From: Acidilobus sp. 7A
GTDB lineage: Archaea > Thermoproteota > Thermoprotei_A > Sulfolobales > Acidilobaceae
Assembly: GCF_003431325.1 (NCBI RefSeq)
Contig: NZ_CP010515.1
Location: forward strand, 806,001-870,000
Direction of reading: 5' to 3'
DNA length: 64,000 nucleotides
Of the stretch, positions 2,554-40,631 are shown in pieces. The notes below the pieces were generated by a model. The model had not been told where the DNA came from. It saw only the letters and a list, made by a program, of their open reading frames with translations, and searched no databases. Position 1 is the first letter of the stretch. Each line of letters begins with the position of its first letter. The position numbers were made by a program, and so were the translations under genes.

Positions 2554-4134
2554 ATGCGCGTGAACTCCCTGAGCAGGGGGGCCCTCGCGGCCATAGTGAT
2601 AATCATAGTAGTTGTGGCCGTTGCAGGCGGCCTGGCCTACTCCATGAGGAGACATGTGACGACCTCAAGCCCTACAACGTCGTCTATAACCACCGCAACA
2701 ACGACAACTCAGATGACAACCACGACCTCAACCTCTATGACCGTCAGCTCGCCAGAGACGTTGACGGTGGTCACCTACACTGGGAAGACGGGCCAGGGCT
2801 TCATGGAGTTCGCAGCTCACCTCTTCGAGGAGGAGCACCCTAACGTAAAGGTCAACGTGATAGCGTTCCCGTTCACGCAGTACATAAGCAACGAGCTCAC
2901 GGTGCTTCAGTCTGGCCAGGGCCAGTACGACATAGTGACGTACACGCCTGCCAACACCATGGAGTTCGTGCCCTACCTCGTGCCCCTCAACAGCACCTAC
3001 GTTAACATCTCAGACCTCTTCTACCCCGTCCAGGCCCTCGGTGGCACTGTAGGCAACGTGACCTACGGCGTGGCGAGGGGGACAAGCGTCATGCTGCTGG
3101 CCTACTACGCTAACTACTTCGACAACGCGACCCTTCAGCAGGAGTTCCAGCAGGAGTACGGCTTCAGCCTCAACCCGTGGACCTGGAACAACTGGAGTCA
3201 GCTGGCAGACGCGAGCCAGTTCTTCACCTCTCACCACATAACTAAGTACGGCATACTGCTCTGGGACCAGACCGGCGACCTCGACCTCTACGAGGCCTAC
3301 GCCCTCGTCTTCGAGTGGTACTACATGCACAGCCCCTCCCTCAACTGCGGCAACGTCATGGGGTTGATGCCGCTCTACGGCGACCTCTTCATGGGCTGCA
3401 TACCGAGCGGCTGGAACCACGGCTTCCCGCCGCCGGCCTTCAACAGCACCGCCGGGGTTGAGGCCCTCGAGGTGCAGAGGGAGATAGTAAGCTACATGCC
3501 GCCGCCCACGGCCCTTCTCGTGTCATATGACAACGTGGTGCCACTGCTTGAGCAGCCAAACTACGCCCCAGGCGCCTTCATTTTTGCCGCGCAGCTCTCC
3601 TACTTCACTAACATGAATAACCTGACTGATATCAGGCTGGCCCCGGCGCCCGGAGGCTATGCCCTTGGAGGCGCCACGTTCTTCGGCGTCAGCAAGTACT
3701 CCGCCCACAAGCAGCTCGCCCTCGAGTTCATTAGCTTCATAGCAAGCCCGCAGGTGCAGGCCGCCTCCTTCTACAACATGACCAACTTCCCAATATCCAA
3801 GCAGGCCTATCAGCTGCTCCTCGAGAACTCCTCGATTCCCTCCTATGAGAGGGAGTGGATAAACGCCACCTTCTACGCCGCTGAGCACGCCTACGCCGCC
3901 ATACCGGCCGTGTCAATAAGCACCACGGCTCTCGAGCCAGCCCTGGAGAAGGAGGTGCTGGGCTACCTGGAGGGGCAGATAACCAACGCCTCCCAGGCCC
4001 TCCAGCAGGCCGCCCAGGCGTGGGTGCAGGACCTGGAGTCCTACTCCACAAGCACTTCTACAACGGCCTCCGCAGCCGCCGCCCCCATCACTCAGCCGCT
4101 GGCCCCGCAGGCCCCATGGGCGAGGCAGGAGTAG
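2554..4134 (+). CDS. ABC sugar-binding protein, paralogue of the 882-2384 protein
   Basis: 526 residues. The N-terminus SRGALAAIVIIIVVV fits a class III (prepilin-type) signal, with possible cleavage between RG and ALAA. In Sulfolobus such signals on sugar-binding proteins are processed by PibD and the proteins form the so-called bindosome. A Ser/Thr-rich stalk (about 34-68) precedes the family 1 solute-binding domain (about 70-500); the C-terminus is Ser/Ala-rich. No transporter subunits are adjacent. The start is ATG at 2554, with an in-frame GTG two codons on. A perfect 75-base piece of this gene (2960-3034) recurs inverted at 10169-10243. The substrate is unknown. Confidence 0.85.
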   Translation: MRVNSLSRGALAAIVIIIVVVAVAGGLAYSMRRHVTTSSPTTSSITTATTTTQMTTTTSTSMTVSSPETLTVVTYTGKTGQGFMEFAAHLFEEEHPNVKVNVIAFPFTQYISNELTVLQSGQGQYDIVTYTPANTMEFVPYLVPLNSTYVNISDLFYPVQALGGTVGNVTYGVARGTSVMLLAYYANYFDNATLQQEFQQEYGFSLNPWTWNNWSQLADASQFFTSHHITKYGILLWDQTGDLDLYEAYALVFEWYYMHSPSLNCGNVMGLMPLYGDLFMGCIPSGWNHGFPPPAFNSTAGVEALEVQREIVSYMPPPTALLVSYDNVVPLLEQPNYAPGAFIFAAQLSYFTNMNNLTDIRLAPAPGGYALGGATFFGVSKYSAHKQLALEFISFIASPQVQAASFYNMTNFPISKQAYQLLLENSSIPSYEREWINATFYAAEHAYAAIPAVSISTTALEPALEKEVLGYLEGQITNASQALQQAAQAWVQDLESYSTSTSTTASAAAAPITQPLAPQAPWARQE

Positions 4135-5810: not shown

Positions 5811-5828
5811 CTAATTTTAAAAAATTAG
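5811..5828. terminator. Bidirectional palindromic terminator
   Basis: CTAATTTT (5811-5818) and AAAATTAG (5821-5828) form a perfect 8-bp stem with a two-base loop. It gives a T-run on each strand between the convergent MFS and APC genes and overlaps the TAA stop of the permease. Confidence 0.55.
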
Positions 5829-7291
5829 CCTGAGGTCTTTCTGCCCGCCTCGGCAGCCATGTAGGTGACGACGCTCTCGCCCAGCTGGCCCGCCCTGGCC
5901 TTGTACGCGGTGTATGCTGCCACCCCGGCCATTACGGAGAGCGACGCCGCGACAAAGGCGAAGTAGGGTTCTGCTAGGTCGCTTATGACGCCCTCGTAGA
6001 ACGTGTAGACGAACAGGGCGGTGCCCAGCACTGGGAACAGTAGGCCTGAGATGACCTTGCGGGCGGCTGAGAACCTCAGCTCCGGATGCCTCCTGAGGTA
6101 GGGGAAGAGGCCGAACTCCGGCACGAAGTGGTGGAAGTACCACGTTATGCTCGATGCCGTCCCCATGACGTACCACGCCACGGCCACGGTGCTCGTGTTG
6201 TAGCCGTACACCTTGACAAGCGATAGGCCCACCGCCAGCGTCGTGGCCAGGGCCACTATGAAGTTCAGCAGCGCCGCGTTGGCTGGGACGTCGTGTCTGC
6301 TCAGCCTCTTGAGCCACCCGCTCCTTATGAAGTTGTCCCTAGCCATGGCCCAGAGCAGCCTCGCCTGGGAGCCGCCGCCGGCCCCGAAGGCGATGAGGGA
6401 GACGAGAAGTATGACAAAGTTAAGCGCCGCTAGGGCCGCCAGCGGGAAGTACCTTGACCACGCCGCTATCTGGGGCAGCGGGGCTGAGATAACGTTGCTC
6501 AGCTCGCCCCTGGGCACCGCGACGAGCTCAGAGTAGGCCGCGATGGCGATAGCTACGGCTGATATCGTGAGGCCTATGTATATGGCCCTCCAGGCGTCCC
6601 TTGTGGGGTTTGCCCCCTCCTCTGTGTAGAAGAGCGCCGTGCCGTAGCCGGCGAACGTGAAGAAGCCAACTATAGCGGTCGCAAGCATGAGCCCCCTGAG
6701 CCCGCCGCTGCTGTTTGCCGGGTTGAGGAAGTAAGCCGAGTTGTAGGGGCTCCTAGCTATTACGGCCACCGTGAACGCGACCACAACGATAAGGGCAGCA
6801 ATGACGGCGGCCGTGAGCACGTTGCCAAGCCTCCTGGCGGGCTGCACGGCCATAGCGTAAGTCACGGCCAGCGTCGCGATGCCGGCGAGGAGCCAGACCC
6901 ACATGGGCGGCATCGTGTGGTACACGTAGTACAGCGTGTCGACCAGGAGCCACCCTATGAAGAACGCGTTGGCGGCCTGCCACCAGTTGTAGAAGAAGTA
7001 GTTGCCCAGGGCAGTGAACTTGCCAGCCCCGCGGCCGAAGCCGAGCTCGGCGAGGCCGTAGTAGCCGCCCGTGAATGGCACTATCCTAGTGTACTCAAGT
7101 ATGGGGAGTGATACCAGCACGAAGAGCGCGTAGCCAATTATTACGGGCCATATGGCCGCCGGCCCTGCGTCGCTTATGAAGGCGGTCACCTCTATAGGGC
7201 CAATTATAGGTAGGACCCCCGCCACCACGGCTGCTACCATGGCGTAGAAGGGCATGGAGCCCCTTCGGAGCTGGGATGACATAGCGACCAC
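5825..7291 (-). CDS. APC-superfamily amino-acid permease
   Basis: 488 residues, about twelve membrane segments. The first segments (IIGPIEVTAFISDAGPAA and the loop FTGGYYGLAELGFGRG) match the glycine-rich substrate-binding helices of APC-type amino-acid/polyamine transporters. YTEEGANPTRDAWRAI resembles the conserved loop after segment 6. The role is uptake or exchange of amino acids across the cytoplasmic membrane; specificity is not visible. The start may be the first codon or the Met three codons later. A second, only distantly related APC permease lies at 10538-12334. Confidence 0.82.
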   Translation of the reverse strand: MVAMSSQLRRGSMPFYAMVAAVVAGVLPIIGPIEVTAFISDAGPAAIWPVIIGYALFVLVSLPILEYTRIVPFTGGYYGLAELGFGRGAGKFTALGNYFFYNWWQAANAFFIGWLLVDTLYYVYHTMPPMWVWLLAGIATLAVTYAMAVQPARRLGNVLTAAVIAALIVVVAFTVAVIARSPYNSAYFLNPANSSGGLRGLMLATAIVGFFTFAGYGTALFYTEEGANPTRDAWRAIYIGLTISAVAIAIAAYSELVAVPRGELSNVISAPLPQIAAWSRYFPLAALAALNFVILLVSLIAFGAGGGSQARLLWAMARDNFIRSGWLKRLSRHDVPANAALLNFIVALATTLAVGLSLVKVYGYNTSTVAVAWYVMGTASSITWYFHHFVPEFGLFPYLRRHPELRFSAARKVISGLLFPVLGTALFVYTFYEGVISDLAEPYFAFVAASLSVMAGVAAYTAYKARAGQLGESVVTYMAAEAGRKTSG

Positions 7292-7352
7292 GGGGTAACC
7301 GTATGCGTGGGATTCTTAAATTGCTGACCCTGGCGGCTCCATGCGCGGGAGG

Positions 7353-7428
7353 TGCGGCGGCCGGGATTTGAACCCGGGACCTCCGGCTTGGAGGGCCGGC
7401 GTCCTAGTCCAGGCTAGACTACCGCCGC
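7353..7428 (-). tRNA. tRNA-Gly (TCC)
   Basis: Minus-strand cloverleaf: acceptor GCGGCGG/CCGCCGC, anticodon stem CCGGC/GCCGG, loop CCTCCAA giving anticodon TCC, and a T-loop reading TTCAAAT. The discriminator is A. CCA is not encoded (the next bases are CCT). No intron. Confidence 0.93.
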
Positions 7429-7681: not shown

Positions 7682-9490
7682 TCACGGCAGGCCTCCGTTT
7701 ATCAGGCTGTAGCTGAACTGGTTGGCAATCAGGTACCCTGCCGCGTTAACGGTGCTGTTCTGCAGCCCCTCAAGGTAGGCGCTCTCCGTGAAGCCGCGGC
7801 CGTTCACCAGGACCTCCGCTGTCAGCGACTTCTGAGTGAGCGCGTTGTTAGAGGTGAGGCCAATTAGTACGGCCCCAGTCGGGTTTATGAACTCAAGTAT
7901 GCCGGAGAAGCCTCCCACGGCCCCCAGGTTATAGCTCATGCTCTCGGTGAAGCTGTAGCTATGCCAGGAGTAGCTCAGGCTGTACGACGGCGCCATGTAT
8001 ATGCTGCCGTTCTGCGTGAACGACGCGTTGTACGGGAACGTGGTCGGCGGGGTTATGGGCACTGCGACGGAGTCGTAGTACAGCGTCACCGGCCAGTTGG
8101 CTGTCAGGCTGAGCGTGTAGGGCTCGTAGCCCTCGGCCCACGAGCTCACGCTGAACTGCTCGTCAAGGTAGTTGAAGGAGAAGGTGCCCGCGTAGTTGTA
8201 GGCCTGCCTCACGGTCGTCCTGCCGGCCTCCGCCGTGCTCACAGTCTCAGTGCCGTGCTCGAACATGAGCTCCGAGGTGTAGTTTATTGAGTAGCTGGCG
8301 CCCTCGTCAAAGTAGAGGCCGGCCGCGCTGTAAGTCATTATGAGGGGCCCAGTGTCACTGTAGCTTGCGCTGGCCGTCAGCACCCTCGCACCCACCATCG
8401 GGTTGCTGCTGTTAACCCAGAGCGCCAGGAAGCCGCCCAGGTGCCACTGGAAGTACCTGCCAGGCACGCCCATGGTCTCGGCGGAGGCGAGCAGGTCGGC
8501 CACGTGTACGGCTATAGTTGCGTTGAGGCCGTAGGCCAGTAGCGGCGTGAGGTCTATAGTGTCAGGCATGTGGAAGGCCAGGGTGTTTATTGAGGTCACC
8601 GGCTTCCACCAGAACAGGTTTATGCCGCCTGTGTAGACGGTCTCGAACGGGTTGATTATGCCGGCCAGGTGGTCGTCATAGTACACCTTAATGTACCTGA
8701 CTGCTGGCATGTTAGTGTACCAGAACTCGTCATTGTAGCCGCCATTGGTGTAGAGCACGAGCCAGGCCCTGTAGGTGCCGTTAGGTATGGACATGTATTG
8801 CACTGCATAGTCCTGGTATGCGTCGAAGAACTCAAAGGAGTAGCCGGCTGGCGAGGTGACGAAGAGGGGTATGATCACGTTCGGCAGGCCAGCCGGAGGG
8901 GTGCCATTGTAGAGCAGGAGCGTCAAGTTGACCAGGTAGTAGCCCGTTATGCCTATGCTGGGCGCGTAGAAGTTGGGCAGCAGCACCTGGAACCTCACTG
9001 GGCCCCTCAGGAGGTTCTCAAAGAACGTCACGTCAACAGCTGCCGTGGAGTTCAGGACCTCCTGGGTGGACCCCCAGAGCAGCGGGGTGCCGTTAGCAAA
9101 TACGTCGACTATCCTGTCGTACTGGGGCCCGCCGGCCTCCCTTATCGAGATGTTAAGGAGCATGAGGCTGTAGTTGCCAGGGGGCACGTAGACGGTGGCG
9201 TTGTAGGGCACCGCCGTGTTGTTGAACATTACGTCCTTGGCTATCCATATGACCTCTGGGGTCTCGTTGGGCGGTATGTACTTGAAGGCCTGGAAGGAGT
9301 AGTACCCGTCATGGCCGCCGAGGGCCCTGCCAGCGTAGGTAACGAGTATTGGATGATGCACTTGCGTTGGGTGAGGCACCGGCCCCGCCTGGTAGCTCCT
9401 GTGGGCCGCCGGCCCCAGGGCCCCTGCTGGCGCAGCTGCCAGGAGCGACAGCGCGAGCAGGGCTGCTAACGCAAGAACGTGTGCCCTCAA
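7682..9490 (-). CDS. Secreted PNGase A-like glycoamidase
   Basis: 602 residues with a signal peptide (about 1-24, ending PAGALG). The central region carries the landmarks of peptide N-glycanase A (PF12222-type): IPNGTYRAWLVLYTN (about 235-249), DEFWYTN (254-260), PFETVYTGGINLFWWKP (281-297) and DLTPLL (313-318). The C-terminal half is beta-rich with many sequons. The predicted role is removal of N-glycans from glycoproteins outside the cell, at acid pH by analogy with plant and fungal enzymes. The TTG start follows GGTGGG, and TATA-like sequences lie at 9544-9556. It is unknown whether the target is foreign glycoprotein or the cell's own surface. Confidence is high for the family, moderate for the activity. 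Confidence 0.72.
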   Translation of the reverse strand: MRAHVLALAALLALSLLAAAPAGALGPAAHRSYQAGPVPHPTQVHHPILVTYAGRALGGHDGYYSFQAFKYIPPNETPEVIWIAKDVMFNNTAVPYNATVYVPPGNYSLMLLNISIREAGGPQYDRIVDVFANGTPLLWGSTQEVLNSTAAVDVTFFENLLRGPVRFQVLLPNFYAPSIGITGYYLVNLTLLLYNGTPPAGLPNVIIPLFVTSPAGYSFEFFDAYQDYAVQYMSIPNGTYRAWLVLYTNGGYNDEFWYTNMPAVRYIKVYYDDHLAGIINPFETVYTGGINLFWWKPVTSINTLAFHMPDTIDLTPLLAYGLNATIAVHVADLLASAETMGVPGRYFQWHLGGFLALWVNSSNPMVGARVLTASASYSDTGPLIMTYSAAGLYFDEGASYSINYTSELMFEHGTETVSTAEAGRTTVRQAYNYAGTFSFNYLDEQFSVSSWAEGYEPYTLSLTANWPVTLYYDSVAVPITPPTTFPYNASFTQNGSIYMAPSYSLSYSWHSYSFTESMSYNLGAVGGFSGILEFINPTGAVLIGLTSNNALTQKSLTAEVLVNGRGFTESAYLEGLQNSTVNAAGYLIANQFSYSLINGGLP

Positions 9491-9569: not shown

Positions 9570-9648
9570 TGGCGGGCCCGCCGGGATTTGAACCCGGGAC
9601 CACCAGCTCCGGAGGCTGGCGCGCTGATCCTGGCTGCGCCACGGGCCC
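9570..9648 (-). tRNA. tRNA-Arg (CCG)
   Basis: Minus strand: acceptor GGGCCCG/CGGGCCC, anticodon stem CCAGC/GCTGG with loop CTCCGGA giving anticodon CCG, T-loop TTCAAAT. Discriminator G and an encoded CCA (9570-9572). No intron. Confidence 0.93.
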
Positions 9649-9679
9649 AGCTACCCTCGCCCGTGAAGGTTAAATAGGC

Positions 9680-10089
9680 CTAGGCCTTGGTCCACCATCA
9701 GAACATGCTGCCGTTGCCTCCTGCAATCATTGGGTTCCCCTCCAAGAGATGCTGCCTGTGTAGCAGTTTATGTAGGGCTTCACCACTCAGTAGTAGCCCA
9801 GCTGAATCACATGTAGAAGTAGAGGCTCACCGCCAGGTCCTCGGCCTGCCTGAACAAGGGCATGGCGGCCGTGGCGTTCGTCAGCTGTGCATGAGCTCAG
9901 GGCTGGCGGGCTCAGCGACAGCTGCACAGCTGACGTAGTAGTGTGCTGCTGTGTTGCTGATGTACTGTGGTGCAGAGCAGGCCAACAGCGAAGGCTACCA
10001 TAACAAACCACAGGAACAGTCAGGACGGACCTATCAAGGGAGGCCTGGAGGGCCTTCGGGCGAAGGGACGCAGCCTTAAATGAGTTCAC
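9680..10089 (-). pseudogene. Internally deleted relic of the peptide-binding protein gene
   Basis: 9680-9880 resembles the last 65 or so codons of the 14405 gene (same order of segments: PNSYWVV-like, AEDLAVQLYFY-like). 9885-10089 resembles its first 65 or so codons (TTTSAVQLSLSPPALSS against TTPAQLSMSPPAPST). About 2.4 kb of the middle is missing; the join is near 9880-9886. Frames of the two ends do not match and stops are present, so it cannot make a binding protein. It keeps the 5' codons FKAASLRPKALQASLDRS in one frame, which helps to judge the start of the intact gene. Confidence 0.7.
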
Positions 10090-10168
10090 CGCCCCAAAGC
10101 CTCCAAAGGGCCGCCAGGGCGATGAAGGGCGGCCTATTAAGCATATCACTGCCTTGAGTACTTGCAGT

Positions 10169-10243
10169 CCTGGACGGGGTAGAAGAGGTCTGAGATGTTA
10201 ACGTAGGTGCTGTTGAGGGGCACGAGGTAGGGCACGAACTCCA
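10169..10243 (-). pseudogene. 75-base perfect fragment of the 2554-4134 gene, inverted
   Basis: These 75 bases equal the reverse complement of 2960-3034 without a mismatch by eye. They cover the codons around MEFVPYLVPLNSTYVNIS of the sugar-binding protein. No homology continues on either side. It directly follows the peptide-binding protein relic. Confidence 0.75.
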
Positions 10244-13947: not shown

Positions 13948-14378
13948 TTAGAGGTAGTCCCACACGCCCCTGCCCTTGTAGTTGTACACTATAGACTTGT
14001 AGGCGGTGACGAAGTCTATGGTGTACCCTATGCCCTCCCTCCCTATGCCTGAGTCCTTCATGCCGCCGAAGGGGTAGTTGTTGATGTAGACGGCCCCCAC
14101 CTCAAGCTGCCTGGCCGCCCTCCTTATCTTTGAGAGGTCGCTGCCGAATATCGCCGCGTCAAGGCCGTACCTCCTCCCGTTGGCAAGGGCTATGGCCTCG
14201 TCGAGGTCCCTGACCTTAACTATAGCTGCTATGGAGGCGAACACCTCCTTGTTGTACATGTAGAGCTCCGGCAGCCTCGAGGCGTCAACCTCTATGAGAG
14301 TGGGCTTTATGTAGTTAGGGCCCAGCTCCTCAACCTTCTTCCCGCCGTGGAGCACCCTGCCGCCCTTTGACACGGCGT
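13948..14378 (-). pseudogene. Truncated gapN copy (3' part only)
   Basis: The 3' 430 bases or so of gapN repeated in inverted orientation to the copy at the left edge, about 96% identical over the aligned bases. It starts abruptly near GACGCCGTGTC and lacks the catalytic Cys and Glu region. It also lacks eight codons (KHGIGYYP) present in the intact gene. In the intact gene that 24-base block lies between two ACTACCC repeats, so slipped-strand deletion explains the loss. The breakpoint sits next to the stop of the peptide-binding protein gene. Confidence 0.85.
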
Positions 14379-14404
14379 CCATAGCCCTTTAAGGTAAAAT
14401 AGGG

Positions 14405-17143
14405 CTACGCCTTGACCCACCACCAGAATATGTTGTCGTTGCCCCCCGCTATCATTGGGTTCTCCTCCCACGTCACTGTCCCCAAGTAGCCAGCCATGTA
14501 GGGCTTGACCACCCAGTAGCTGTTGGGCTGAATAGTGTAGACATAGAAGTACAGCTGCACCGCAAGGTCCTCGGCCTGCCTGAACAGGTGTATTGAGGCC
14601 GTGGCGTTGGTGAGCTCGACGCCGTCGGCCTCGGCCATCAGGTCCTGCAGCTCCTGATACTCCATGGCCTCCTGCCAGAGCAGCTTGCCGATCTGGGGCT
14701 CAAGGCTCGGGCTAAGCCCTGGCCAGCTTATCTTAGAGGCGTTGAAGTAGGCGCTGAGGTTCTCCAGGTAGGTGACGTTCCAGCCGTCCGGGTCAGCCCA
14801 GACCATGCCAGTGTACTGGGCGTTCATCATGTCTGACGCCAGCGGGTAGTCGGCCACGTAGCCGCTATTCCAGATAGCCATGGGGTTCAGGTCAGGGACC
14901 CAGTATGAGAGCATGAGGGGCCACGGGAGGTAGAGCGGCACCGCGTTTATGTTTGGGTCTATGTTGTGGAGCGCCTGGGCCCACATCTCGGCAGCCGTGT
15001 AGTCAGTGGTGTCGCCGCTCTGGATCACTATCGGGAAGTAAACGCTTATGTTGTAGAAGCCGCTCTCCTCAAGCAGCCACTTTGCGTATGTCAGGTTGAA
15101 GGTCGGGCAGCCTGTCAGCTCCGACGGGGGTATGTATATGTCCAGGCCCCTTATTATGGCCCCGCAGTATGGGCTCCCGAAGTTGAAGTGGTACTTGGCG
15201 TTGCCAACTATGTCATTTATGTACTGGGTATAGTTGAAGGCGTAGGCGAAGGCCTCCCTCACAAGCGGGTTGGCGAAGTACCAGCTGGGGATGTTAAAGG
15301 ACGGGTTGAGCTGGTGCAGTAGGGTCTCGTTGACCTGGAGGTCGAAGCCGAAGAACTCCTCCAGCAGGCTCGGGGACTCATAAACCTTGGCCTCCCCCTC
15401 ACTCTCAAGCTGCAGCAGCTTAGGTATGAAGCTGTCGGGCAGGCTAACCACTATGTCGGCCTGCCCTGAGGCGAACGTCTCATATGCCGTCACGGGGTCC
15501 TTGACCCAGTATATGACTATGGTGTCGTTGGGCCTCGGCACGTAGGTTATGTTGGTCGGCCAGTACGGGTTCGGCTTGAGGACTATGCTCTGGCCTGGAG
15601 CGTAGGCCGCTATGTAGTAGGGCCCCGTCGCCATGGGGTCCCACCTGACCTGCTCGTTGTAGTCCCACTCGTTGGCCGTCTGCTCGTACTGGTAGAAGGC
15701 CTCGGCCAGCTGGGTGTAGTTGTGGTCGTAGAGGCCCGTGAAGTTTATGCCGTCTCCAACCTCCTCAAGCCACTTTGCGTCAAGTATGCCTGGCCCCCAG
15801 GCCTCGGCGAGGGCTGTGAAGAACACCTGAGGGGCCACCGGCCTAATTAGGTGGAAAGTCACGGTGTCCGTCGTGTTACTGTATGTTATGGCGTCCACTA
15901 TCTCCTCAGCCCCCTGGGTGTCATTGGGCGACGTAACTATGAACGTGAACGGCGTGTAGTTCGGTATGAGGTACTGGGCCAGTATCCAGCCCCTCGTCGC
16001 TGGCGCGCCCCCTGCGAGCAGCAGGTCCCTCACTAGGCTGTACCACACGTCATAAGCTGTTATCGGGTCGCCGTTTGCCGCCCTGAGGCCGGGCCTCACC
16101 TTGAACACGTACACTGTGTAGTTAGGCGATATTGCGCCGTACTCGTACCTTGCGGTCACGTTGCTCCAGTTGCCCACCGTGGGCAGGTACTCGGCCGCCA
16201 TGGGTATGAACTCAGTCGTGTAGGGGCCATCGTAGAGCAGGAGGGAGGCGAAGATGTTATCTATGACCTCAAAGCTTGTGGTGTCGTAGGCTATCGCCGG
16301 GTCGAAGCTAAACGGCCCTCCAGGCACGTTCTCGGCCGCTATTATTGTGCCCGGGTCCGGCACCGACGCCTGGGGGCTGAACAGCGAGAACGGCTCAGCC
16401 CGGGAGCTCACGGCTATGGTGTAACAGGACGTGTAGTTGTAGGTCGCGCCGCTGCTGACGTTCTCAGTAACTATGGTGAGGCAGACCGTGTAAAGGCCAG
16501 GCCTAGCATACATGGCAGTAACAGGGTTGACCTTGGGCTCCAGGTAGCTCACGTTGCCTGAGCCCGTCAGGGCCACCTGCTCGGCGTAGCCTGTGCCGTT
16601 GACCGAGGGCACAGCTGTGACGGTGCCGTTGCCGAGGTCCCACACGTATTTATCTATAGTCATGTTGGCCCCCGACGGCGGCTGGAGGAAGCCCGCGCTG
16701 AGGCTGACCGGCTGGTCCACGTTAGCCACGAAGGTAGAGGGCGCCACGATAGGCACAGTTATGAGCTGGGCGAAGCTCTCGTTGAGCTGAGGCGGCGCCA
16801 CAGTTATCTGTATAAGGTTGCCCTGGGAGCTGCCGACAAGCCTGCCCTTGTAGTAGATGGCGTAGTAGACGAGGTACCTGCCAGGGTGCCTGTAGACCAC
16901 CGTTGCGTAGCCGCTCGTGGAGTTGACCACAGAGCCGTTGCCAACGTAGAAGAGCACGTAGCTGCCCGGGGAAGCTGTAAATGAGCCCACGGACAGCTCC
17001 AGGGGCTGCCCGGCTATCGCTGTGTATGTGCTGGGCGCCGGCGGGCTCATGGAGAGCTGAGCGGGCGTCGTGGATGTGTGCTGCGTCAACGACCTGTGGT
17101 ACAGGAGCGCGCCAGCGGCAAGGGAGGCTACTACAACAACCAC
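14405..17143 (-). CDS. Very large ABC peptide-binding protein (SBP_bac_5) with PKD-like N-terminal region
   Basis: 912 residues from the first in-frame GTG; family members usually have 500-600. A hydrophobic N-terminus and Ser/Thr-Pro linker precede about 230 residues with PKD/Ig-like strands (GSYVLFYVGNGSV, then YVWDLGNGTV). The oligopeptide/nickel-binding domain starts near 265. The protein should bind peptides outside the membrane; no permease genes are adjacent. The annotated start is doubtful: it removes the basic N-terminal segment, and the relic at 9680-10089 shows this in an upstream frame that here is shifted by one base inside a 20-base palindrome (17171-17190). Removing one G would give a start at GTG 17222 or 17231. 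Confidence 0.82.
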   Translation of the reverse strand: MVVVVASLAAGALLYHRSLTQHTSTTPAQLSMSPPAPSTYTAIAGQPLELSVGSFTASPGSYVLFYVGNGSVVNSTSGYATVVYRHPGRYLVYYAIYYKGRLVGSSQGNLIQITVAPPQLNESFAQLITVPIVAPSTFVANVDQPVSLSAGFLQPPSGANMTIDKYVWDLGNGTVTAVPSVNGTGYAEQVALTGSGNVSYLEPKVNPVTAMYARPGLYTVCLTIVTENVSSGATYNYTSCYTIAVSSRAEPFSLFSPQASVPDPGTIIAAENVPGGPFSFDPAIAYDTTSFEVIDNIFASLLLYDGPYTTEFIPMAAEYLPTVGNWSNVTARYEYGAISPNYTVYVFKVRPGLRAANGDPITAYDVWYSLVRDLLLAGGAPATRGWILAQYLIPNYTPFTFIVTSPNDTQGAEEIVDAITYSNTTDTVTFHLIRPVAPQVFFTALAEAWGPGILDAKWLEEVGDGINFTGLYDHNYTQLAEAFYQYEQTANEWDYNEQVRWDPMATGPYYIAAYAPGQSIVLKPNPYWPTNITYVPRPNDTIVIYWVKDPVTAYETFASGQADIVVSLPDSFIPKLLQLESEGEAKVYESPSLLEEFFGFDLQVNETLLHQLNPSFNIPSWYFANPLVREAFAYAFNYTQYINDIVGNAKYHFNFGSPYCGAIIRGLDIYIPPSELTGCPTFNLTYAKWLLEESGFYNISVYFPIVIQSGDTTDYTAAEMWAQALHNIDPNINAVPLYLPWPLMLSYWVPDLNPMAIWNSGYVADYPLASDMMNAQYTGMVWADPDGWNVTYLENLSAYFNASKISWPGLSPSLEPQIGKLLWQEAMEYQELQDLMAEADGVELTNATASIHLFRQAEDLAVQLYFYVYTIQPNSYWVVKPYMAGYLGTVTWEENPMIAGGNDNIFWWWVKA

Positions 17144-21444: not shown

Positions 21445-22755
21445 ATGGAGATACTGGTGATAGGTGGCGGAGCCGCTGGCATGTCGGCCGCCTCCTGGGC
21501 CAGGAGGAAGGCGCCCGAGGCCAGGATAACCGTCCTCGAGAGGACCAACATAATAAGCCACGCCCCCTGCGGCGTGCCCTACTACATAGGAGGGCTGTTC
21601 AAGGACTACTGGCTGCTCCAGGCCTACGACGTCAAGTTCTTCAGGGAGAGGAGGAACATAGAGGTGTTGACTAACGCTGAGGCCGAGGAGCTTGACGTAA
21701 GGTCAAGGGTCGTCGTGGCCAGGGTGGGCGGGCAGAGGGCTAAGCTGGAGTTCGACAGGCTGATAGTGGCCACCGGCGCGAGGCCCAGGAGGCTCCTCAG
21801 CGCTGACGCCAGGGTGCTTTACGTTCATCACCCAGCAGACGCTGAGGCTGCCAGGAGGGCGGCGGAGGCAGCCAGGGAGGTCACGGTGGTCGGGGGAGGG
21901 GTCCTGGGCGTTGAGGTGGCGGAGCAGCTGAGGAACATGGGCAAGGCGGTCCACCTGGTGCACAGGGGGCCCTACCTGATGAGCAGGGACCTGGACGAGG
22001 AGCTGGGCTCGGCCCTCACGCAGATGGCCAGGGGGGCCGGCATAGACGTCAGGCTTGGGGTTACTGTGTCTGAGGTAAATGACAGCAGGGTGAGGCTCAG
22101 CGACGGCTCGTACCTGAACTCGGACCTGGTGATAGCGGCCGTCGGGGTTGAGCCGAACGTCGACCTCGTGAGGGGGCAGCTGAGGCTCGGGCCCCACGGC
22201 GCCATAGCGGTTAACGACAGGATGGAGGCGACCTACGACTACGTCTTCGCGGCTGGCGACGCGATGGAGCACAGGAACCTGGTCACAGGGCAGCCCTACT
22301 GGAGTCCCCTGGCCCCCATAGCTAACAAGTCAGGCCTCGTGGCGGGGGTCAACGCCGCCGGGGGAGACAAGAGGTTCCCCGGGGTCCTGGGCGACATAGT
22401 TACCAGGTTTGAGGGGGTTGCCTTCGGCAGGGTGGGCCTCAACGAGAGGGAGGCCAGGGAGGCGGGGATCAGGTACGTGACCTCAATAATAACGACGAGG
22501 TCGAGGGCCAGGTACTACCCAGGAGGGGGCGACGTGACTGTGAAGCTCCTGGCCGAGGAGTCGAGCGGGATCATAATAGGGGGCCAGGTCGCTGGGCCAG
22601 AGGAGGTCATAGGCAGGCTGGGCGTCATAGCGGCTGCGATCATGAGGAGGATGACGGCCGATGACCTGTTCTTCGTGGAGATGGGCTACCACCCGAGCTC
22701 AGGCAGGGCCTGGGACCCCGTAGTGCTGGCCGCCAGGCAGCTCATGAGGGTGTGA
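21445..22755 (+). CDS. NADH oxidase / CoA-disulfide reductase-like flavoprotein
   Basis: 436 residues. FAD motif VIGGGAAGMSAASWAR (5-20), a single redox-active Cys in SHAPCGVPYYIGG (Cys42), NAD motif VVGGGVLGVEVAEQL (about 151-165) and the second FAD motif VFAAGDAMEH. The C-terminal dimer domain ends DLFFVEMGYHPSSGRAWDP. This single-cysteine class reduces CoA disulfide or uses NAD(P)H to reduce oxygen or sulfur compounds in the cytoplasm; which one applies cannot be read from the sequence. The start is ATG. The C-terminal 155 bases are almost perfectly repeated in the relic at 40421-40631. Confidence 0.85.
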   Translation: MEILVIGGGAAGMSAASWARRKAPEARITVLERTNIISHAPCGVPYYIGGLFKDYWLLQAYDVKFFRERRNIEVLTNAEAEELDVRSRVVVARVGGQRAKLEFDRLIVATGARPRRLLSADARVLYVHHPADAEAARRAAEAAREVTVVGGGVLGVEVAEQLRNMGKAVHLVHRGPYLMSRDLDEELGSALTQMARGAGIDVRLGVTVSEVNDSRVRLSDGSYLNSDLVIAAVGVEPNVDLVRGQLRLGPHGAIAVNDRMEATYDYVFAAGDAMEHRNLVTGQPYWSPLAPIANKSGLVAGVNAAGGDKRFPGVLGDIVTRFEGVAFGRVGLNEREAREAGIRYVTSIITTRSRARYYPGGGDVTVKLLAEESSGIIIGGQVAGPEEVIGRLGVIAAAIMRRMTADDLFFVEMGYHPSSGRAWDPVVLAARQLMRV

Positions 22756-40420: not shown

Positions 40421-40631
40421 GTGCAGGTCCTAGTAATAGGCGGAGCCGCGGGGATGCCAGCGGCCTCGTGGGCCAGAGGAGGTCATAGGCGGGCTGGGCG
40501 TCATAGCGGCTGCGATCATGAGGAGGATGACGGCCGATGACCTGTTCTTCGTGGAGATGGGCTACCACCCGAGCTCAGGCAGGGCCTGGGACCCCGCAGT
40601 GCTGGCCGCCAGGCATCTCATGAGAACATAG
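40421..40631 (+). pseudogene. Mosaic relic of the NADH oxidase/CoA-disulfide reductase gene
   Basis: 40421-40475 matches the first codons of the 21445 gene (VQVLVIGGAAGMPAASWA against MEILVIGGGAAGMSAASW) at roughly 75-80% identity. 40470-40624 matches its last 155 bases at about 98% (three differences). The join is at the shared GGGCCAG and the two parts are in different frames. The 1.1 kb middle is missing. Upstream homology begins near 40384. Confidence 0.85.

Follow-up and report, generated by a model that had tools for sequence, protein, structure and literature searches.

A predicted secreted acid PNGase of the PNGase A family in Acidilobus sp. 7A and its pairing with an S53 protease gene in related archaea

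Almond PNGase A and its plant and fungal homologs share their Pfam family, PF12222, with the archaeal protein analyzed here, whose score lies far above the family cut-off; the likeness is drawn through the Pfam profile alone, and the archaeal protein is free of cysteine. Acidic PNGases have also been characterized from bacteria, with optima at pH 2.6 and pH 2 (PMC4231336, PMC7348039). With respect to two of these enzymes, PNGase H+ from Terriglobus roseus and PNGase Dj from Dyella japonica, a search with the archaeal profile brought up relatives from Acidobacteria and from Dyella that carry the same motifs. The bacterial enzymes nevertheless differ, as archaeal and sampled bacterial sequences form separate clades in our tree, with 100/100 support and long branches between them, and PNGase Dj works best at 55°C (PMC7348039), whereas the archaeal host presumably lives at higher temperatures. 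The nearest solved structure in both sequence and fold is that of PNGase Bb (PDB 9vla), yet identity in the structural alignment is 16%; no paper on this enzyme was found in the open-access literature searched. PNGase F likewise has a fold that matches the archaeal model, and its WDR is aligned with the archaeal YDR, but both PNGase F and zebrafish Ngly2 belong to other Pfam families (PF09112/PF09113) and show marginal sequence similarity to the archaeal protein.

Sequence and fold together give good support for assigning the archaeal protein to the PNGase A family. The archaeal branch is an uncharacterized part of a known family whose archaeal members are already visible to Pfam, and we found no characterized archaeal member in the open-access literature searched. 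We favor, with moderate confidence, the explanation that the protein is a secreted acid PNGase of the PNGase A/PNGase H+ family that serves glycoprotein digestion, beside an S53 protease in the wider lineage.

Family membership, fold, and putative active site

The gene lies at positions 7682..9490 on the minus strand of the window, the 64,000-nucleotide stretch of DNA that was analyzed, in a genome of 1,539,049 bases assembled as one contig. Read from 9490 to 7682, it is an uninterrupted open reading frame of 602 amino acids, identified by its PF12222 match and its homologs; it begins with TTG, with a Shine-Dalgarno-like GGTGGG a few nucleotides 5' of this start and no earlier in-frame start codon in the open frame. 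The first-pass annotation had proposed a PNGase A-like enzyme on the basis of short motifs, and the PF12222 profile agrees with high significance (score, 109.4 bits; cut-off, 25.3; E = 2e-31), the match spanning protein residues 95 to 363 (the catalytic region, 8402..9208, minus strand, supported also by the fold match) and profile positions 29 to 323 of 336. No other PF12222 match occurs in the genome. PF12222 is also the only family listed for the protein in a Pfam scan at E values up to 0.01, in which the PNGase F families PF09112 and PF09113 gave no match, and an NCBIfam scan assigned no family. All of the motifs named at first pass are present in the reading frame, although the first two had been listed in reverse; the actual order is GTYRAWL, DEFWYTN (254), PFETVYTGGI, WWKP (294), and DLTPLL (313).

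A profile scan detected the family in 33 of the 398 genomes of the phylum and, among 14 control genomes, in Sulfolobus acidocaldarius alone. When genome contigs were searched with the single sequence, no relatives emerged, but an alignment query did recover them from Sulfolobaceae, Caldisphaera, Vulcanisaeta, Thermogladius, and a metagenome-assembled genome (MAG) of Marsarchaeota G2, with remoter ones in Acidobacteria, Rhodanobacteraceae including Dyella, Verrucomicrobia, and Streptomyces; the viral contigs searched held none. The phylum scan, the relatives, and the tree all accord with the archaeal, thermoacidophile-type setting that had been read from the letters of the DNA.

By eye, the N terminus looks like a Sec signal peptide, with a short charged start and a hydrophobic run ending in AAAPAGA. 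This putative signal peptide comprises residues 1 to 25 (MRAHVLALAALLALSLLAAAPAGAL; 9416..9490, minus strand), and a hydrophobic leader is also seen in the homologs in the archaeal alignment. The mature protein is acidic, with a calculated pI of about 4.7. Its composition would predict 5.9 N-glycosylation sequons, but 16 are present, a density resembling that of exported binding proteins: three binding proteins encoded in the window show a similar richness (27 sequons against 7.5 expected in SBP5), unlike the cytoplasmic enzymes and membrane transporters that were tested.

An AlphaFold model built from 23 archaeal homologs (pLDDT, 80.5; pTM, 0.79) was compared with known structures using Foldseek. 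The best match was PNGase Bb in its glycopeptide complex (E = 2e-28; TM scores, 0.66/0.73), followed by PNGase F (1pnf; E = 3e-7) and PNGF-II (E = 1e-6), so that the expectation of a PNGase fold holds in the model. PNGase Bb is also the nearest PDB relative by sequence, with E = 9e-7 for the single sequence and 1.8e-22 for the profile. The protein is accordingly modeled with the PNGase double jelly-roll fold; the loops that possibly form the site (residues 256 to 260, 284 to 290, and 299 to 307) are modeled poorly, with low confidence. Residues 364 to 602 (7685..8401, minus strand), which lie outside PF12222, form a C-terminal region that is beta-rich in the AlphaFold secondary structure and is covered in part by the PNGase Bb match.

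The acidic residues expected of a catalyst are conserved in archaea and bacteria. Asp125, in QYDR (codon at 9116..9118, minus strand), and Asp254-Glu255, in DEFWYTN (codons at 8726..8731, minus strand), are invariant in the alignment of 23 archaeal sequences; the bacterial rows that cover the site retain QYDR or QFDR, and the acidic-Glu pair is retained as well. The catalytic acids of PNGase F are Asp60 and Glu206 (PMC12753239). For comparison we used a PNGase F sequence identical to 1pnf over 314 residues in a PDB search and, in the wider profile comparison, a segment of zebrafish Ngly2 beside it. With an archaeal plus bacterial profile, hhalign placed QYDR against the PNGase F EWDR, which together with the conservation makes Asp125 the proposed equivalent of Asp60, but did not align Glu255 with Glu206; a narrower single profile gave a weak alignment to PNGase F with the motifs outside it. 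Since hhalign gives no such register, we infer the equivalence of Glu255 and Glu206 from the resemblance between GCAEW in PNGase F and GCDEQW, the reading of PNGase Bb at the position of DEFWYTN. Catalysis by the archaeal protein is thereby a prediction from sequence. A same-genus homolog (L007, from genome G272) has QYDT in place of QYDR, with the Asp retained.

Pairing with an S53 protease in relatives

At 18 of the 28 PNGase loci compared, the gene has a shared partner encoding a protein of about 1,300 amino acids, and when 1.5-kb flanks were compared, the C-terminal part of this partner immediately preceded the PNGase gene in 22 of 30 archaeal genomes. The pairing extends to the Marsarchaeota MAG, where the PNGase gene directly follows a pro-kumamolisin gene. 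The partner carries a pro-kumamolisin activation domain, a kumamolisin match (E = 2e-40), and the S53-type motifs ETALDVE and GGTS; near its C terminus, a hydrophobic segment gives way to basic residues, from which the S53 acid protease is predicted to be anchored in the membrane. Where gene ends were measured, the protease and PNGase genes overlap by exactly 4 nucleotides at 9 of 14 loci. Mapped on the PNGase tree, the adjacent or nonadjacent state changed about three times, and the chance of adjacency in one genome is roughly 0.1%, an estimate that ignores shared ancestry. We found no mention of the pairing in the open-access literature searched.

In the window genome, the partner is not adjacent to the PNGase gene. 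Its ortholog is a stand-alone gene about 420 kb away, near C1:1,234,800-1,238,300, and is 66% identical to the partner in another genome of the genus (G262). In G272, the PNGase gene is followed about 3.7 kb further downstream by a pro-kumamolisin gene. It therefore appears most likely that adjacency to the protease is ancestral and was lost within the genus. No thermopsin (PF05317) was found in the window genome.

Glycan substrate and role of the enzyme

The idea that the host N-glycosylates itself is supported by homologs of AglB and Agl24 in its genome. PF02516 alone suggested that AglB was absent, but the profile had missed two divergent homologs, which were recovered with an open reading frame of G272 as the query (L107 and L108; G000:C1:898961-901270 and 1496339-1498654, outside the window). 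The Agl24 homolog has a GGH motif and shares 37% identity with the presumed Agl24 of S. acidocaldarius, the gene for which we take, from its position and motif, to be Saci1262. Because of these AglB and Agl24 homologs, the glycoproteins of the host itself probably carry the GlcNAc-Asn linkage. Agl24-like genes have been reported in all Acidilobales genomes examined (PMC8993221), the N-glycans of Sulfolobus are chitobiose linked (PMC2948927), and PNGase F has freed an N-glycan from Sulfolobus cells (PMC12042106). The window genome also has a GH38 alpha-mannosidase gene and an Asparaginase_2 gene, both compatible with further breakdown and not specific to it. In one genome with a PNGase gene (G086), no PF04101 match, and hence no Agl24-type gene, was found; the substrate of its PNGase homolog (L026) may differ.

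The protein is probably one half of an extracellular, nutritional pair that digests glycoproteins. In this scenario, the surface-anchored pro-kumamolisin protease, encoded just upstream in the wider lineage, would open the glycoprotein, while the PNGase, with Asp125 and Glu255 acting within its double jelly-roll site, would act as an EC 3.5.1.52 enzyme and hydrolyze the GlcNAc-Asn bond of N-glycoproteins or glycopeptides outside the cell and so remove chitobiose-linked glycans that would obstruct proteolysis. The freed peptides and sugars would then be imported by the cell. What the analysis shows is membership in the family, the match in fold, the conservation of the residues, the pairing of the genes in relatives, and the presence of AglB, Agl24, and GH38 genes in the window genome; secretion, activity, an acid and heat optimum, the order of events, and the nutritional role are predictions.

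The first-pass annotation had left the choice between nutrient scavenging and surface remodeling, and the conserved linkage of the gene, in relatives, to one for a secreted S53 acid protease tilts it toward digestion of glycoproteins. The other possibility, that an active PNGase acts chiefly on the cell's own surface, in the turnover or remodeling of an N-glycosylated S-layer and binding proteins or the removal of glycans from damaged surface proteins, is a minority view to which we give perhaps one chance in a few. It would fit the richness in sequons of exported proteins, including the PNGase itself and SBP5, the AglB and Agl24 homologs, which suggest the same linkage on the cell's own proteins, and the predicted membrane anchoring of the partner. 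Yet the neighbors of the gene in the window and in relatives include systems for uptake and an S53 protease of digestive type. N-glycosylation is general in Archaea, whereas just 33 of the 398 genomes scanned in the phylum have the PNGase gene, which therefore does not belong to the general upkeep of N-glycans. We favor glycoprotein digestion because of the conserved pairing with the protease and the uptake neighbors, although the proximity of such genes is no proof that the enzyme serves nutrition. Also to be set against the favored explanation are the separation of the two genes in the window genome, the poorly modeled loops, and the hhalign result for Glu255. That the PNGase fold has been kept for some other activity or for glycan binding, as the long branches separating the archaeal clade from the bacterial one, the 16% structural identity to PNGase Bb, and the lack of an assayed archaeal member in the literature searched might suggest, is improbable, as QYDR, DEFWYT, YTGGI, and DLTP are kept in archaea and bacteria and simple binding would not demand that.

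The digestion reading can be extended, more tentatively and with somewhat less than even expectation, to a two-gene module of thermoacidophilic archaea in which a membrane-anchored S53 protease and a PNGase A together digest archaeal N-glycoproteins extracellularly, for example, the S-layers of neighboring or dead cells. If true, this module would contain the first functional archaeal PNGase and a way to strip off the chitobiose-linked N-glycan of archaea. With an archaeal PNGase A, a family of plant, fungal, and acidobacterial tool enzymes would reach into hot acid habitats and could supply glycan analysis with a reagent of great stability to heat and acid. The pairing also offers a testable answer to the questions of how thermoacidophiles feed on glycoproteins and whether crenarchaeal chitobiose-linked glycans are ever taken off again.

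Window neighborhood

The setting among uptake genes described at first pass is confirmed by two SBP_bac_1 genes, an MFS transporter, two amino acid permeases, and an SBP_bac_5 gene nearby. An operon joining the PNGase gene to these neighbors was considered and is not supported, because tRNA genes detected by ARAGORN flank it on both sides: tRNA-Gly(TCC) on the 3' side (7351..7428, minus strand) and tRNA-Arg(CCG) on the 5' side (9570..9648, minus strand). Beyond the former lies an amino acid permease gene (5825..7291, minus strand; PF13520), a homolog of which also follows the PNGase gene in G272, where the order is SBP5, PNGase, permease, MFS. The window shares the last three of these with G272; its intact SBP5 gene, encoding a peptide-type binding protein with PKD (14405..17143, minus strand), is about 5 kb away, while its homolog in G272 directly precedes the PNGase gene.

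Decayed SBP5- and SBP1-like pieces are found 5' of the tRNA-Arg gene in the window. Positions 9659 to 10243 form a mosaic of decayed binding-protein sequence, in which 9659-9886 resembles 14384-14616 (the SBP5 end) at 75% and 10169-10243 repeats 2960-3034 (SBP1) exactly, over 75 bases, in inverted orientation. Two further duplications were observed in the window. The C-terminal part of an aldehyde dehydrogenase gene is present in two inverted near-copies, at 344-800 and 13948-14380 (91% over 457 bases), of which the one at 13948-14380 is a fragment, and a direct repeat of 156 bases with 98% identity links 22593-22748 and 40469-40624.
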